DNA from: Sphaerochaeta pleomorpha str. Grapes
GTDB taxonomy: Bacteria > Spirochaetota > Spirochaetia > Sphaerochaetales > Sphaerochaetaceae
Reading direction: 5' to 3'
Assembly (NCBI RefSeq): GCF_000236685.1
Contig: NC_016633.1
Coordinates: forward strand, 2,852,001-2,916,000
Length of the DNA stretch: 64,000 nucleotides
The notes below the pieces were generated by a model that ran no database searches, had not been told where the DNA came from, and worked only from the letters and a program-made list of their open reading frames with translations. Shown here in pieces: positions 37,122 to 60,955 of the stretch. Every line of letters begins with the position of its first letter. The first letter of the stretch is position 1. A program made the translations under genes and the position numbers.

Positions 37122-37194
37122 CGCAGGGTGGAGCAGTTGGCAGCTCGTCGGGCTCATAACCCGAAGGCCGTAGGTTCGAGTCCTACCCCTGCTA
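37122..37194 (+). tRNA. Initiator tRNA-Met (anticodon CAT)
   Basis: A full cloverleaf folds: acceptor stem starting CGCAGGG and closing CCCTGC, D arm with GAGCAG, anticodon stem GGG/CCC around CTCATAA, T arm GTAGG TTCGAGT CCTAC. The first acceptor pair is a C/T mismatch and the anticodon stem has three G-C pairs, both hallmarks of the initiator. The discriminator is A at 37194 and CCA is not encoded. Confidence 0.95.
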
Positions 37195-49507: not shown

Positions 49508-50230
49508 ATGGAAGATTTTACATTAGTCAGGACAAACCTAAGCCAGCAAGTGGCTGAACACCTAGAAGAAGTGATCCTATCCTCCAAATTATCGAAAATC
49601 GATGAGAAGCTTCCTTCTGAATTGGCTTTGTCGCGTCAGTACAATGTCAGTAGACCGGTAATTCGAGAAGCTTTAAAGCTGTTGCAGGAACGAGGGTTGG
49701 TTGTCATGAAGAATGGTGATGGGTCCTATGTTACCAAACCTGAGACCGATACCATTATGCAAGCGGTAAACAGAATCATGCAGATGGGCAATATATCCTC
49801 TGATGATCTGGCTCAAGTGCGGTCGATGCTCGAGATTTCTTCAGCCCAATTGGCAGCTAAAAATGCAACCGACGCACAACTTCTGGAGATTGAAGCCATT
49901 GCGGATTCGATGAAAGATGCTTCTTTATCCCTGAAACAACGTGTCGAGAAAGACAGCGCGTTCCATATAGGCATAGCAAGGGCAAGTGGAAACAAATTGC
50001 TTGAAACCTTTCTTCAAGTCATTGCTCCCTTGTTGCCTGACTATATGGGAAAAGGTGTATTGCTTCCCGGCGGTATCGAAGACGGGGTGCATAGGCATAG
50101 CCTACTTGTTGAAGCACTGAAAAGTCATTCGCCAGAGAAGGCCGCAAAGGCAATGGGAGAGCACTTGGCAGCTTCCCGAGACAACGTTCGGGAATTTGAT
50201 TCCCGCTTATCCAGGAAACCTCGGTCTTGA
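49508..50230 (+). CDS. FadR-type GntR-family regulator (first copy)
   Basis: A 240-residue regulator: winged helix at residues 5-75 (PSELALSRQYNVSRPVIREALKLLQERGLV) and a C-terminal FCD helical domain with metal/ligand histidines (DSAFHIGIARASGN, GVHRHSLLVEAL, MGEHLAAS). It heads the TRAP transporter cluster and likely responds to a sugar acid. The second regulator at 55051-55776 is a close paralogue, with about the same length and identical helix-turn-helix region. Confidence 0.93.
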   Translation: MEDFTLVRTNLSQQVAEHLEEVILSSKLSKIDEKLPSELALSRQYNVSRPVIREALKLLQERGLVVMKNGDGSYVTKPETDTIMQAVNRIMQMGNISSDDLAQVRSMLEISSAQLAAKNATDAQLLEIEAIADSMKDASLSLKQRVEKDSAFHIGIARASGNKLLETFLQVIAPLLPDYMGKGVLLPGGIEDGVHRHSLLVEALKSHSPEKAAKAMGEHLAASRDNVREFDSRLSRKPRS

Positions 50231-54945: not shown

Positions 54946-55050
54946 GAGAATTTTAATTCTTGTGGGTATATTGCCTGAACTGCTGGAAATATCTTTACAC
55001 AATGCCAAGTACCTTATACAAGTAGTAGTACTATTGCCAAGGAGTCTGTG

Positions 55051-55776
55051 ATGGATGTTTCTGATTTTTCCCTTTCCCGAACCAACCTCAGCCAGCAGGT
55101 GGCGGACCATCTCGAGGAAGTAATCCTTGCATCTTCCTCGACGAGGGTTTCGGAAAAATTGCCTTCGGAGATGAAACTTGCAAAACAATACAATGTCAGT
55201 AGACCTGTCATTCGTGAGGCCTTGAAACTATTACAGGAGCGTGGGTTGGTCACCTTGAAAAACGGTTCAGGTGCCTATATTACAAAACCGGAAACCGATA
55301 CGGTCATGACTGCAGTGAGCAGAATCATGCAGGTCGATAATATTTCCCCCGAAGAATTGACGGAAGTACGTGGAATCTTGGAAATGTCGGCTGTGGAGCT
55401 TGCAGCAGTACATGCGAATGCAGAGCAACTTGCACGAATGGACCATATCCTGAAGTTGTTCAATGATAAAACCCTGCCTTTGAAAGACAGGGTAGCCCTT
55501 GACGCTTCATTTCATATCGCAATTGCCGAGGCAAGCGGAAATGAATTGCTCACGATGTTTGTCGAAGTCCTTACTTCCTTGCTCAAAGAATATATGGGTA
55601 AGGGGATTCTCATTCAAGGCGGCATCGACGATGCCATCGATCGCCACCGGAAAATCCTTGATGCCCTCTCTGATCATGATGTGGGTTTAGCCCGTTTGGC
55701 AATGACAGAGCATCTGAAGGTTTCCAGCGAAAATGTCAGACAGTTTGATTCCCGGTCACAGGCCAAGGAAAACTAA
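55051..55776 (+). CDS. FadR-type GntR-family regulator (second copy)
   Basis: A 241-residue regulator paralogous to the one at 49508: the winged helix reads PSEMKLAKQYNVSRPVIREAL and the FCD domain has DASFHIAIAEASGN, AIDRHRKILDAL and MTEHLKVS. The ATG at 55051 has AAGGAG six bases upstream (GTG 55048 is too close). It closes the TRAP-aldolase island. An 8-bp palindrome TAGTACTA (55027-55034) lies in its upstream region. Confidence 0.93.
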   Translation: MDVSDFSLSRTNLSQQVADHLEEVILASSSTRVSEKLPSEMKLAKQYNVSRPVIREALKLLQERGLVTLKNGSGAYITKPETDTVMTAVSRIMQVDNISPEELTEVRGILEMSAVELAAVHANAEQLARMDHILKLFNDKTLPLKDRVALDASFHIAIAEASGNELLTMFVEVLTSLLKEYMGKGILIQGGIDDAIDRHRKILDALSDHDVGLARLAMTEHLKVSSENVRQFDSRSQAKEN

Positions 55777-56120
55777 GCAAGCCTCCTCTCTGTTTTAATG
55801 AAGGCACATGGTAAAAGGGTAGCGCTGCATACAGATTGTTTCCTCTCTTTGTGAAAAATATTATTGGTAAAAATTCAGAAACCCCGGTTATTGTGCATAC
55901 TGTGCAAAGTTGGTTCTGAAAATGTGCAGGTATCTGCTGCACAGGCAGCTTGGAAATCATAAACTGCTTTCTCTTCATACAAGACCTTCCACTGGCATAT
56001 TGCCTGTTGGTGATAGTTGGGTAATTTGTTTTTGTCGTCTCCTAAATCTTGTATTTTCCCCTCTTTGCTTTAGAATGGAAAGGCAAGGGGTTTGTTGTGC
56101 CTTTTTGCGAAGGAGAGAAA
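55777..56120. other. Intergenic stretch without a gene
   Basis: About 340 bases between the regulator and the MEMO gene. A perfect seven-pair hairpin TGTGCAG/CTGCACA lies at 55923-55943. Short frames overlap the start of the next gene but have no ribosome site. I see no convincing gene here. Confidence 0.4.
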
Positions 56121-57026
56121 ATGGATACTGCTTTTCATTCTCCGAGAGTCAGACATGCTGGTTTTGCAGGGTCCTGGTATCCTCTTGATGCCACTGAGCT
56201 AGAGTCGTTTCTGGAGATATCCCTGCAGGAAGCAAAAGACCGGGAATTGCAAAAAGGCAGCTTTTATCCAGAGGGAAGGTTTGCAATTCTTCCCCATGCA
56301 GGACTTTCCTTCTCCCAACGTGGCATAGCTCCTTTCTTTCTCCATTTCCCACCCCAGGCAGAGCGGGTCTTAATCATCGCTCCCTCCCATTATACCTCCC
56401 TGTATTCAGATGAATTGTCAGTAGGTTCCTTTGATGAATATGAGACGCCTTTGGGCAATCTAAAGGGGTTCTCGCTTTCCTTTGGGATCAAGGGTGGGGA
56501 GCGGGCAATTCAAAGTGAACATGCCGTGGAAATGGTCATGCCCTACCTAGCTTGGGTAGTAAAAACCAGGAAACAGGAACTTGCTGTCTCCACGGCGCTG
56601 GTCTCTCATCTGAGTGACTGTTCAAAAGCAAAGGAAATTGCCCATCGGTTGATCGATAATCTCGGTGAAGAATCCTTGCGCAGTGGAAAAACCCTGGTAA
56701 TCGCCAGTAGCGATTTCACCCATTACGGTCGTCGGTTTGCACATACCCCGTATGAGAACAACCTTCCCCGTGCAATTTTCAACAGGGTCAAAGAAGACGA
56801 CCTGGCATTGTCAGCCTTGCTTATCGACGGAAATATCAAGGAAGCCCTGGCTTTCTGTGAGAATCATCATAGTACGGTCTGCGGCCTTGCCTCGGGAGCC
56901 ATCGTAGCCACGCTTGCAACCTGTTTTAATGCGAAAGGCACCCTCAGTGAGTATTACACGTCAAATGACGTATTCGAGAATGAAGAGGATGAATTTGTTA
57001 CCTATTCGAGCATCATATGGAGTTGA
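56121..57026 (+). CDS. AmmeMemoRadiSam system protein B (MEMO family)
   Basis: A 301-residue MEMO1-family protein related to non-haem iron dioxygenases (HAGFAGSWYP, FAILPHAGLSFSQRG, IIAPSHYTS, ASSDFTHYG, HHSTVCG with likely metal-binding His). AAGGAG lies six bases before the ATG at 56121. It is the first gene of the triad and its end overlaps or abuts the AMMECR1 gene. In bacteria and archaea MEMO, AMMECR1 and a radical SAM protein occur together or fused, with no settled function. Confidence 0.93.
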   Translation: MDTAFHSPRVRHAGFAGSWYPLDATELESFLEISLQEAKDRELQKGSFYPEGRFAILPHAGLSFSQRGIAPFFLHFPPQAERVLIIAPSHYTSLYSDELSVGSFDEYETPLGNLKGFSLSFGIKGGERAIQSEHAVEMVMPYLAWVVKTRKQELAVSTALVSHLSDCSKAKEIAHRLIDNLGEESLRSGKTLVIASSDFTHYGRRFAHTPYENNLPRAIFNRVKEDDLALSALLIDGNIKEALAFCENHHSTVCGLASGAIVATLATCFNAKGTLSEYYTSNDVFENEEDEFVTYSSIIWS

Positions 57027-57028
57027 CC

Positions 57029-57604
57029 ATGGAAACGAAGGATATGCATCTGCTGTTGGCCTTAGCTCGGGAAACTTTGGAGAAAACCCTTGGTGAAGAT
57101 AGGTCGAACTATGCAAAAACTATCGAGAACAACCCCTCGGAGGCAATGAAAGCCCGTCATGGGGCCTTTGTAACCCTGAGAAGAAAAGGGAGCGAGAATG
57201 AAGGGCATGGTGCCTTGCGTGGTTGCATTGGCTATTTGACAGGGACGAAACCCCTTTGGAAACTCGTGCAGGATTTGGTTCTGGAAGCGGCTTTCGAGGA
57301 CCCCCGGTTCCCTCCCGTCCAGATTGAAGAGCTGCCGTATCTGTCGATTGAAATCTCAGTACTCTCCCCTTTGAAACCCATTGCCTCGCCCCATCAATTT
57401 GAACCGGGACACGATGGCATCATTCTTTCACTTGGGCCACACCGTGCAGTATTCCTTCCCCAAGTCGCTACAGAACAGGGCTGGGGACGCGAAGAGATGC
57501 TTGACAACCTCTGCCTGAAAGCAGGTCTGGATCCTTCTGCATGGAAAGATCCTGATTGCCATTTTGAAACGTTTCGGGCAACCGTATTTTCGGAGGATGA
57601 CTGA
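57029..57604 (+). CDS. AmmeMemoRadiSam system protein A (AMMECR1 domain)
   Basis: A 191-residue AMMECR1 protein with the invariant core GALRGCIGYL, followed by FEDPRFPPV and the region LSIEISVLSPL. The ATG at 57029 has GGAG seven bases upstream; ATG 57017 would overlap the MEMO gene by ten bases. The reaction is unknown. Confidence 0.94.
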   Translation: METKDMHLLLALARETLEKTLGEDRSNYAKTIENNPSEAMKARHGAFVTLRRKGSENEGHGALRGCIGYLTGTKPLWKLVQDLVLEAAFEDPRFPPVQIEELPYLSIEISVLSPLKPIASPHQFEPGHDGIILSLGPHRAVFLPQVATEQGWGREEMLDNLCLKAGLDPSAWKDPDCHFETFRATVFSEDD

Positions 57605-57606
57605 TC

Positions 57607-58590
57607 ATGCATAACACCTCCTGTGATTTCTGTTGGAGACATTGTTCGATTGCAAACGGAAAGACCGGGGTTTGTGGTGTGCGTAAGAACCAGAATGGCA
57701 CAATCGTGACAACTGGGTATGGGCAGGTTGTCTCCATGGCAGTGGACCCAGTCGAGAAAAAACCGCTTTACCATTTTATGCCAGGGTCGAAAACCTTCTC
57801 ATTTGCCCTGTTCGGTTGCAATTTCACCTGCTCTTTCTGTCAGAATTATCCCATAACGCAGAAAGAGTATATCTCTACCACTCCAATAATAGGTAATGAA
57901 ATCCTTTCACCTTCCCAGATAGTAACACTGGCACTTGACTCTGGTTGTCCCTCTGTTAGCTATACCTATAGCGAGCCCATAGTCTGGCAGGATTATATGA
58001 TTGAGACAGCCGCCCTTGCAAAAGAAAATGGCCTGAAAAACATTATGGTAACCAATGGTTCCTTTTCAAAGGAAGCCCTTGAAAGGGTAGTCCCACTCAT
58101 TGACGCCTTCAATATTGACGTTAAGGGAGACCGCGCATTCTATAATCAAGTGTGCCAGGCTGATCTTGAACCTGTTCTCGATTCCATTGCCTATGTAGTA
58201 AAGGCAAATGCACATTTGGAGGTGACCACAATGGTCATCGAGGGCATGCATACCTCCAAGATGATACAGGAACTGGGAAAGGCCCTGAAAGAACTCAATG
58301 TTCAGGTCTGGCACCTGAGCCGATTCTTTCCCCGCTATAAATTTTCTTCTCGAAAACCGACCAGTGAAGAGTTCCTCTCTGAAATGATCGAAGAAGCAAA
58401 ACTCTCCTCGATTCCCTATATCTACGGGGGTAACAGTGCAAGAAGCGATGTGACCTATTGCCCTTCCTGCCATACCCTGCTCATGGGCTCCCATTCCTAC
58501 GAGGGGAAGAACACCCCAGGAAAGTACACCTCGATCAAAAAAGGGCGTTGTGAGCACTGTGGCCTACCCATATATGGGCTTTTCCCCTGA
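57607..58590 (+). CDS. AmmeMemoRadiSam system radical SAM enzyme
   Basis: A 327-residue radical SAM protein with CxxxCxxC at Cys71, Cys75 and Cys78 (FGCNFTCSFCQN). The N-terminal CDFCWRHC and CGV cysteines (6, 9, 13, 23) and the C-terminal CPSC and CEHC pairs probably bind zinc or another cluster, as in pyruvate-formate-lyase-activating-enzyme relatives. Substrate unknown. GGAGG precedes the ATG; the gene starts three bases after the AMMECR1 stop. Confidence 0.94.
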   Translation: MHNTSCDFCWRHCSIANGKTGVCGVRKNQNGTIVTTGYGQVVSMAVDPVEKKPLYHFMPGSKTFSFALFGCNFTCSFCQNYPITQKEYISTTPIIGNEILSPSQIVTLALDSGCPSVSYTYSEPIVWQDYMIETAALAKENGLKNIMVTNGSFSKEALERVVPLIDAFNIDVKGDRAFYNQVCQADLEPVLDSIAYVVKANAHLEVTTMVIEGMHTSKMIQELGKALKELNVQVWHLSRFFPRYKFSSRKPTSEEFLSEMIEEAKLSSIPYIYGGNSARSDVTYCPSCHTLLMGSHSYEGKNTPGKYTSIKKGRCEHCGLPIYGLFP

Positions 58591-58593
58591 CGC

Positions 58594-58788
58594 TCAGTCG
58601 AGGATTTCCTGAACCCTTCCTACCTGACCTGACTCCAGTCTCACTTTTATCCCATGCGGATGGGTAGGGGAATTGGTAAGCAAGTCTTTGACAATGCCTT
58701 CCGTGCGCTTCCCGGTTCTCTGGTCGGCCTTGAGTTCTATCGAGACTTTGAGTCCTGCATGTAGGTTGCTTCTGGTTTTTCCGTCCAT
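58594..58788 (-). CDS. YwbE family protein (DUF2196)
   Basis: A 64-residue protein matching the YwbE family, with the core LKVSIELKADQRTGKRTEGIVKDLLT and ending GQVGRVQEIL, a small beta-rich fold related to KOW-like modules. AAGGAG precedes the ATG at 58788. Function unknown. It converges with the radical SAM gene, three bases apart. Confidence 0.85.
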   Translation of the reverse strand: MDGKTRSNLHAGLKVSIELKADQRTGKRTEGIVKDLLTNSPTHPHGIKVRLESGQVGRVQEILD

Positions 58789-58897
58789 CTCTTGTTCTCC
58801 TTGCCATTGAGTATATGCTAAGGCGAGTGCCTTGGTCATTACGATGACAAATTTTTATGATTCTGTTACAGTGGGCTTTTTTAGGAGTAATTTCGTG

Positions 58898-60544: not shown

Positions 60545-60955
60545 ATGGAAAACGCATTTGTAGAGAAGGCAAGGGAGAATCATGAGAAGGGATATAACTG
60601 TGCACAGTCTGTAGCCTGTGCCTTTTTGCCTGTTCTCTCCATCGACGAGAGTACCTTGTTTTCTGTCATGGAAGGCTTTGGTGGCGGGATGGGTGGCAAC
60701 GAGGCAACCTGTGGCGCACTAAGCGGGGCAGTGGCAGTGGCATCGCTTCTGACAAGCAGTGGAAAAGTTGAAAACCTTACCAAGGCCAAGACCTATGAAC
60801 TTGCAAAGCAGATGGTCGAACTGTTTGAACAAAGGACACAGAGTCTTGTCTGCAAGGAGCTCAAAGGAACTGAGAGCGGTGTTGCCTTGCGTAGCTGTCC
60901 CCTCTGCATTGAAGACGCAGTACTCATTGCACAGCAAGTACTTCATATCGAATAG
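60545..60955 (+). CDS. C_GCAxxG_C_C family redox-type protein
   Basis: A 136-residue helical protein with the family motif: Cys19 and Cys25 in GYNCAQSVACAF, GGGMGGNEATCGALSGAV, the CKEL cysteine and the CPLC cysteine pair. These proteins are thought to be redox or metal-binding; function unknown. AGGAGG precedes the ATG. Confidence 0.88.
   Translation: MENAFVEKARENHEKGYNCAQSVACAFLPVLSIDESTLFSVMEGFGGGMGGNEATCGALSGAVAVASLLTSSGKVENLTKAKTYELAKQMVELFEQRTQSLVCKELKGTESGVALRSCPLCIEDAVLIAQQVLHIE

Follow-up and report, generated by a model that had tools for sequence, protein, structure and literature searches.

An AmmeMemoRadiSam gene trio of Sphaerochaeta pleomorpha: co-inheritance, predicted metal sites and a possible link to the translation apparatus

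The AmmeMemoRadiSam locus

The window analysed here, a 64,000-nucleotide stretch of the Sphaerochaeta pleomorpha genome, contains three consecutive genes on the forward strand. They encode a MEMO family protein (AmmeMemoRadiSam protein B; 56121..57026, 301 aa), recognized by Pfam, NCBIfam and alignment with human MEMO1; an AMMECR1 family protein (AmmeMemoRadiSam protein A; 57029..57604, 191 aa), recognized by Pfam and NCBIfam; and an AmmeMemoRadiSam radical SAM enzyme (rSAM; 57607..58590, 327 aa), recognized by NCBIfam and further characterized through an AF2 model. The coordinates bear out the two-base gaps reported in the initial annotation, which read CC between MEMO and AMMECR1 and TC between AMMECR1 and rSAM. 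Each start is preceded by a Shine-Dalgarno-like sequence, namely AAGGAG for MEMO (56110..56115, forward strand), GGAG for AMMECR1 and GGAGG for rSAM. The proposed identification also holds, as all three products exceed the curated NCBIfam cut-offs: MEMO scores 114.9 bits with TIGR04336 (cut-off 26) and 117 bits with the Pfam Memo model, AMMECR1 165.6 bits with TIGR04335 (cut-off 99) and 179 bits with its Pfam model, and rSAM 250.3 bits with TIGR04337 (cut-off 220). The trio is a further member of an already named system and shows no departure from the family. The genome (one contig, 3,590,853 bases) has one AMMECR1 and one family-level rSAM, and the nearest named relatives of the latter are from Spirochaetales.

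5' of the trio lies a GntR/FCD regulator, itself preceded by a TRAP-transporter cluster. Two such regulators (49508-50230 and 55048-55776), closely alike by eye, bracket the TRAP transporter and aldolase-like genes, an arrangement resembling a duplicated regulator. On the other side a YwbE-family gene (58594-58839, reverse strand) is convergent with rSAM, and farther 3' a C_GCAxxG_C_C redox protein (60545-60955, forward strand) is encoded ahead of purine-synthesis-like genes. An Rfam search of the 64-kb window found no element 5' of the trio, its sole match being a tRNA gene (37122-37194, forward strand). Upstream of MEMO no clear promoter or promoter-like site was found on the forward strand.

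Co-inheritance and gene order

Of 198 Spirochaetota genomes, 105 encode both rSAM and AMMECR1 and 83 encode neither; the 10 with only one of the two are draft genomes (Fisher 7e-43, a value not corrected for phylogeny); all three genes are found in 101. A single genus (g6) contains both extremes: five of its genomes encode the complete set, and seven encode none of it. The pattern extends well beyond spirochaetes, with MEMO present in 47 of 48 rSAM-bearing genomes spanning many bacterial and archaeal phyla. The association stated in the initial annotation is a known one, already embodied in the names of the NCBIfam models, and the co-inheritance of the three genes is near complete. Since genomes tend to retain the whole set or lose it altogether, we treat the trio as a unit; this pattern, together with scores above the curated cut-off for every protein, places its reality far beyond chance.

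The trio is complete and consecutive at this locus, as had been claimed, but contiguity is not the rule: it is seen in 19 of the 101 Spirochaetota genomes that hold all three genes and, among 80 loci from many phyla collected by rSAM similarity (some of them cut by contig ends), in about 6. Where the genes do adjoin, they appear in three orders. MEMO-AMMECR1-rSAM is shared by the present locus, L038 (uncultured Spirochaetales) and L039 (Alkalispirochaeta alkalica), AMMECR1-rSAM-MEMO is found in L056, L068 and L092, and rSAM-MEMO-AMMECR1 in L180 and, in fused form, L116. That the set has come together more than once, and not always in the same order, argues strongly for a single pathway. Fusions of MEMO to AMMECR1 are common; the AF2 model of the L116 fusion (pTM 0.68 from 12 sequences) defines no interface between the two domains. 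In one genome MEMO and AMMECR1 occur twice, some 5 kb apart (L153:4785-14197), once as a fused protein encoded beside rSAM and once as two distinct genes with a small lipoprotein-like gene after them. In a Thermoanaerobacterales record (L078:1-1278), a dioxygenase-fold-like domain with the motif SGDLSH, weakly MEMO-like, is fused to AMMECR1 as if replacing MEMO.

Predicted metal site of MEMO and the conserved motif of AMMECR1

The trio MEMO aligns with human MEMO1 at E 2.5e-19. The human iron ligands H49, H81 and C244 correspond to H59 (codon 56295..56297), H90 (56388..56390) and C254 (56880..56882, all on the forward strand), so that the His-His-Cys set is kept, as are the neighbouring H131, D189 and H192 in the form of H134, D198 and H201. 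A MEMO1-type iron site is predicted from this alignment. In human MEMO1, H49, H81 and C244 bind Fe(II) or Cu(I), no dioxygenase activity was found, and genetic interactions with iron genes were observed (PMC11081632). AMMECR1 is present in 50.7% of anaerobic but 3.4% of aerobic bacteria (PMC13386939), and few genes mark anaerobic bacteria as strongly. Oxygen is therefore unlikely as a co-substrate in bacteria. Dioxygenase chemistry dependent on O2 was considered for MEMO and is disfavoured by this bias together with the cysteine ligand.

AMMECR1 carries an LRGCIG motif (residues 63-68; 57215..57232, forward strand), which is retained in 44 of the 46 sequences compared. In a human family, the AMMECR1 substitution G177D is associated with developmental delay, midface hypoplasia and elliptocytosis; it affects a glycine of this motif, the last one judging by the published mutagenic primer (PMC5502304). 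A Pfam search detected no glycyl-radical domain in AMMECR1.

The radical SAM enzyme

The cluster motif of rSAM is C71-x3-C75-x2-C78 (57817..57840). It is flanked by an N-terminal C-x2-C-x3-C-x9-C motif (C6, C9, C13 and C23; 57622..57675), invariant in 80 relatives, and by a zinc-ribbon-like C-terminal CxxC...CxxC arrangement (C285, C288, C315 and C318; 58459..58560), conserved in at least 90% of the same number, all three on the forward strand. The additional cysteines noted at both ends are real, but they typify the whole family, and the idea that they set this enzyme apart was rejected. The N-terminal four are candidates for a zinc site or may hold an auxiliary Fe-S cluster.

No solved structural relative of rSAM was detectable by sequence. 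The AF2 model, built from 80 sequences, is a confident one (pLDDT 93, pTM 0.92), and its top three matches in the PDB are all entries of pyruvate formate-lyase (PFL) activating enzyme (E about 1e-13), followed by NifB (3e-10) and then by lipoyl synthase and viperin-like enzymes. As modelled, the fold of rSAM would be closest to that of PFL-activating enzyme.

Genomic contexts and a second, NFACT-linked MEMO

Outside the trio, the three genes recur in several other neighbourhoods. The gene rpsB, for ribosomal protein S2, precedes MEMO in five archaeal-type loci, and a CoaBC-like gene does so in four Spirochaetota loci. Upstream of rSAM we find an NFACT-R_2/ThiI-like gene in 4-5 loci, mostly from Omnitrophota, Nth in 4-6 loci, and a UbiE-like methyltransferase directly 5' in 6-7 loci (L055, L079, L081, L100, L105 and L109 among them), in records named Desulfobacterales, Desulfobacteraceae, Syntrophobacteraceae and Deltaproteobacteria. 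UbiA lies directly 3' of rSAM in three loci (L071, L108 and L109) from Desulfobacterales-type records. Genes for a ZIP transporter and a CDF efflux protein recur near rSAM in four loci each, at a distance of 2-9 genes.

The same genome encodes a second MEMO-like protein (L006:6875-7717, reverse strand), whose gene overlaps the end of a gene for the sole NFACT protein found in the genome (L006:7704-9137); the pair lies at genome position about 3,535,874-3,538,136. The two MEMO proteins have no detectable BLASTP similarity to each other, and both match TIGR04336. In 30 Spirochaetia loci retrieved with the second MEMO, an NFACT gene adjoins MEMO in 27, and AMMECR1 is also next to it in 16. These NFACT-linked MEMOs keep the equivalent of H49 and usually those of H81 and C244; D189 is replaced by Asn in nearly all of them and H192 is lost in all. 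They constitute a separate clade; the trio MEMO groups with those of L038 and L039. In 17 loci a gene 3' of MEMO or of AMMECR1 encodes a protein of about 450-500 aa (L006:5371-6873, with relatives in L119, L120, L122 and L128), which shows a central hydrophobic segment and an N-terminal part that recalls, by eye, a degenerate kinase; the copy in the trio's genome has no Pfam match.

The NFACT protein (P0005) matches Bacillus subtilis RqcH at E 6.6e-31, is about 80 residues shorter, the difference falling in the HhH region, and scores 101 against the RqcH_arch equivalog cut-off of 400. At the tRNA-reading 97DR98 motif, Arg is present in all 25 sequences that cover the site, and the residue before it is Asp in 12 of them and Glu in another 10. 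Proximity of NFACT and MEMO is also seen outside the class Spirochaetia (genomes G015, G053 and G074) and in genus g7, whose small genomes have the two within about 2-3 kb and yielded neither AMMECR1 nor a family-level rSAM. NFACT and AMMECR1 show no tight co-inheritance: several g6 genomes have NFACT but lack the trio, many genomes of other classes show the converse, and on this distribution NFACT was rejected as an obligate partner of the trio. The adjacency involves the paralogous MEMO and, in relatives, AMMECR1; the trio itself does not adjoin NFACT. No description of the NFACT-MEMO-AMMECR1 arrangement was found in the searchable literature, a scope that excludes Burroughs et al. 2019, and its novelty is unproven.

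Functional interpretation

The MEMO1 and AMMECR1 families extend from archaea to humans, and mutation of AMMECR1 causes a human developmental disorder. We agree with the initial annotation that the function is unsettled: the system is known, and no reaction has been assigned to it. Building on the genes, their co-inheritance, the conserved metal-ligand residues and the confidently modelled fold of rSAM described above, we tentatively propose, with a probability of roughly 0.38, that the trio constitutes a single oxygen-sensitive, Fe-dependent pathway of radical modification that probably acts on the translation apparatus. In this scheme rSAM would act first, cleaving SAM in the manner of a PFL activase and generating a radical on its substrate, a protein or an RNA. 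MEMO would hold Fe(II) by its His-His-Cys ligands, accompanied by the Asp/His pair, AMMECR1 would contribute the LRGCIG loop, and a MEMO-AMMECR1 complex might carry out the next step, one independent of O2. The target could be a tRNA, the ribosome or a ribosome-bound chain. A target in translation is suggested by NFACT beside the divergent MEMO in Spirochaetia, rpsB before MEMO in archaea and the NFACT-R/ThiI-like gene before rSAM in Omnitrophota. This step of the argument is a weak one, since NFACT and the trio often occur without each other and the NFACT-linked MEMO is not that of the trio. Against it also counts that a conserved neighbourhood can persist by descent, and the CoaBC, UbiE-like/UbiA and Nth contexts point away from a translation target. 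A narrower version, in which the three proteins serve ribosome-associated quality control, appears doubtful: the canonical trio would modify an element of a tRNA or of a nascent chain that RqcH uses, and the second MEMO of Spirochaetia would be the dedicated partner of a shortened RqcH.

Chief among the alternatives, though still unlikely, is that the substrate of the trio is a lipid, isoprenoid or quinone-like, and not a component of translation. The UbiE-like methyltransferase 5' of rSAM and the UbiA gene 3' of it favour such a target, as would the occurrence of archaeal MEMO near mevalonate kinase, and Burroughs et al. 2019 (JBC) reportedly proposed nucleotide-base and isoprenoid contexts for Memo; the UbiE/UbiA contexts are, however, confined to few lineages, and the Spirochaetia context and archaeal rpsB point elsewhere. 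It is improbable that MEMO and AMMECR1 instead handle iron or copper, with rSAM as a client or sensor that has no dedicated substrate. The metal binding of human MEMO1 and its genetic interactions with iron genes (PMC11081632) and the recurrent ZIP and CDF genes would fit this role, but those genes do not adjoin rSAM, and strict co-inheritance of an rSAM with extra Cys motifs of its own suggests catalysis.

The likeness of rSAM to PFL-activating enzyme, whose complex with a peptide substrate is among the nearest folds, raises the quite improbable prospect that rSAM is a glycyl-radical activase of AMMECR1, with the last Gly (or the Cys) of LRGCIG as the radical site and MEMO as the subsequent user of that radical. 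After its own family, the best-scoring HMMs for rSAM are those of glycyl-radical activases, and both the conservation of LRGCIG and the human G177D substitution in it would suit a radical site. This likeness exists at 13-15% identity, however, AMMECR1 has no detectable glycyl-radical domain, and animals, to our knowledge, keep MEMO1 and AMMECR1 without a partner rSAM; LRGCIG must therefore serve another purpose there. That the trio is adjacent by chance and its proteins act independently is hardly credible: the scatter of the genes in most genomes would agree with it, but near-perfect co-inheritance, all-or-none loss inside g6, the fusions and the re-assembly in different orders strongly disfavour it.

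A pathway of radical modification, probably directed at translation, remains our preferred reading. If the translation link is true, it opens a long-standing question on two human proteins to direct test; a role in ribosome quality control would place human MEMO1 and AMMECR1 beside NEMF. A bacterium that has both the compact trio and, apart from it, an NFACT-linked MEMO lets the two roles be told apart. The new elements of this analysis are the NFACT link, the near-perfect co-inheritance of mostly scattered genes, the three orders of the trio, the conservation of the MEMO iron ligands and the modelled fold of rSAM.

Comparison with known systems

The fold of PFL-activating enzyme (3C8F, 3CB8) matches the rSAM model with TM 0.78-0.80 over the target; TIGR02493 scores rSAM at 43 against a cut-off of 232, so that the similarity is one of fold alone and rSAM is not a member of that family. 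We know of no counterpart in PFL-activating enzyme to the N- and C-terminal Cys motifs of the trio rSAM. Human MEMO1 in its Fe-bound structure (PDB 7KQ8) has the iron ligands and H131, D189 and H192 in common with the trio MEMO, whereas extradiol dioxygenases of the LigB type use His-His-Glu ligands, from which the trio MEMO differs in having Cys254 as the third ligand, as in MEMO1 (PMC11081632). The trio AMMECR1 matches PH0010 (1VAJ), ST0229 (1WSC) and MM0484 (1ZQ7), structures deposited as hypothetical proteins, at E 8e-31 to 3e-20, with LRGCIG in common. With RqcH/NEMF of the NFACT family, the likeness in overall match and in the DR motif belongs to the protein encoded beside the paralogous MEMO and not beside the trio. 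The AmmeMemoRadiSam system (TIGR04335/TIGR04336/TIGR04337) has the same Cys motifs as the trio; its genes are usually scattered but contiguous here, and the present genome differs from the usual case in also holding a second, NFACT-linked MEMO that has lost D189 and H192.
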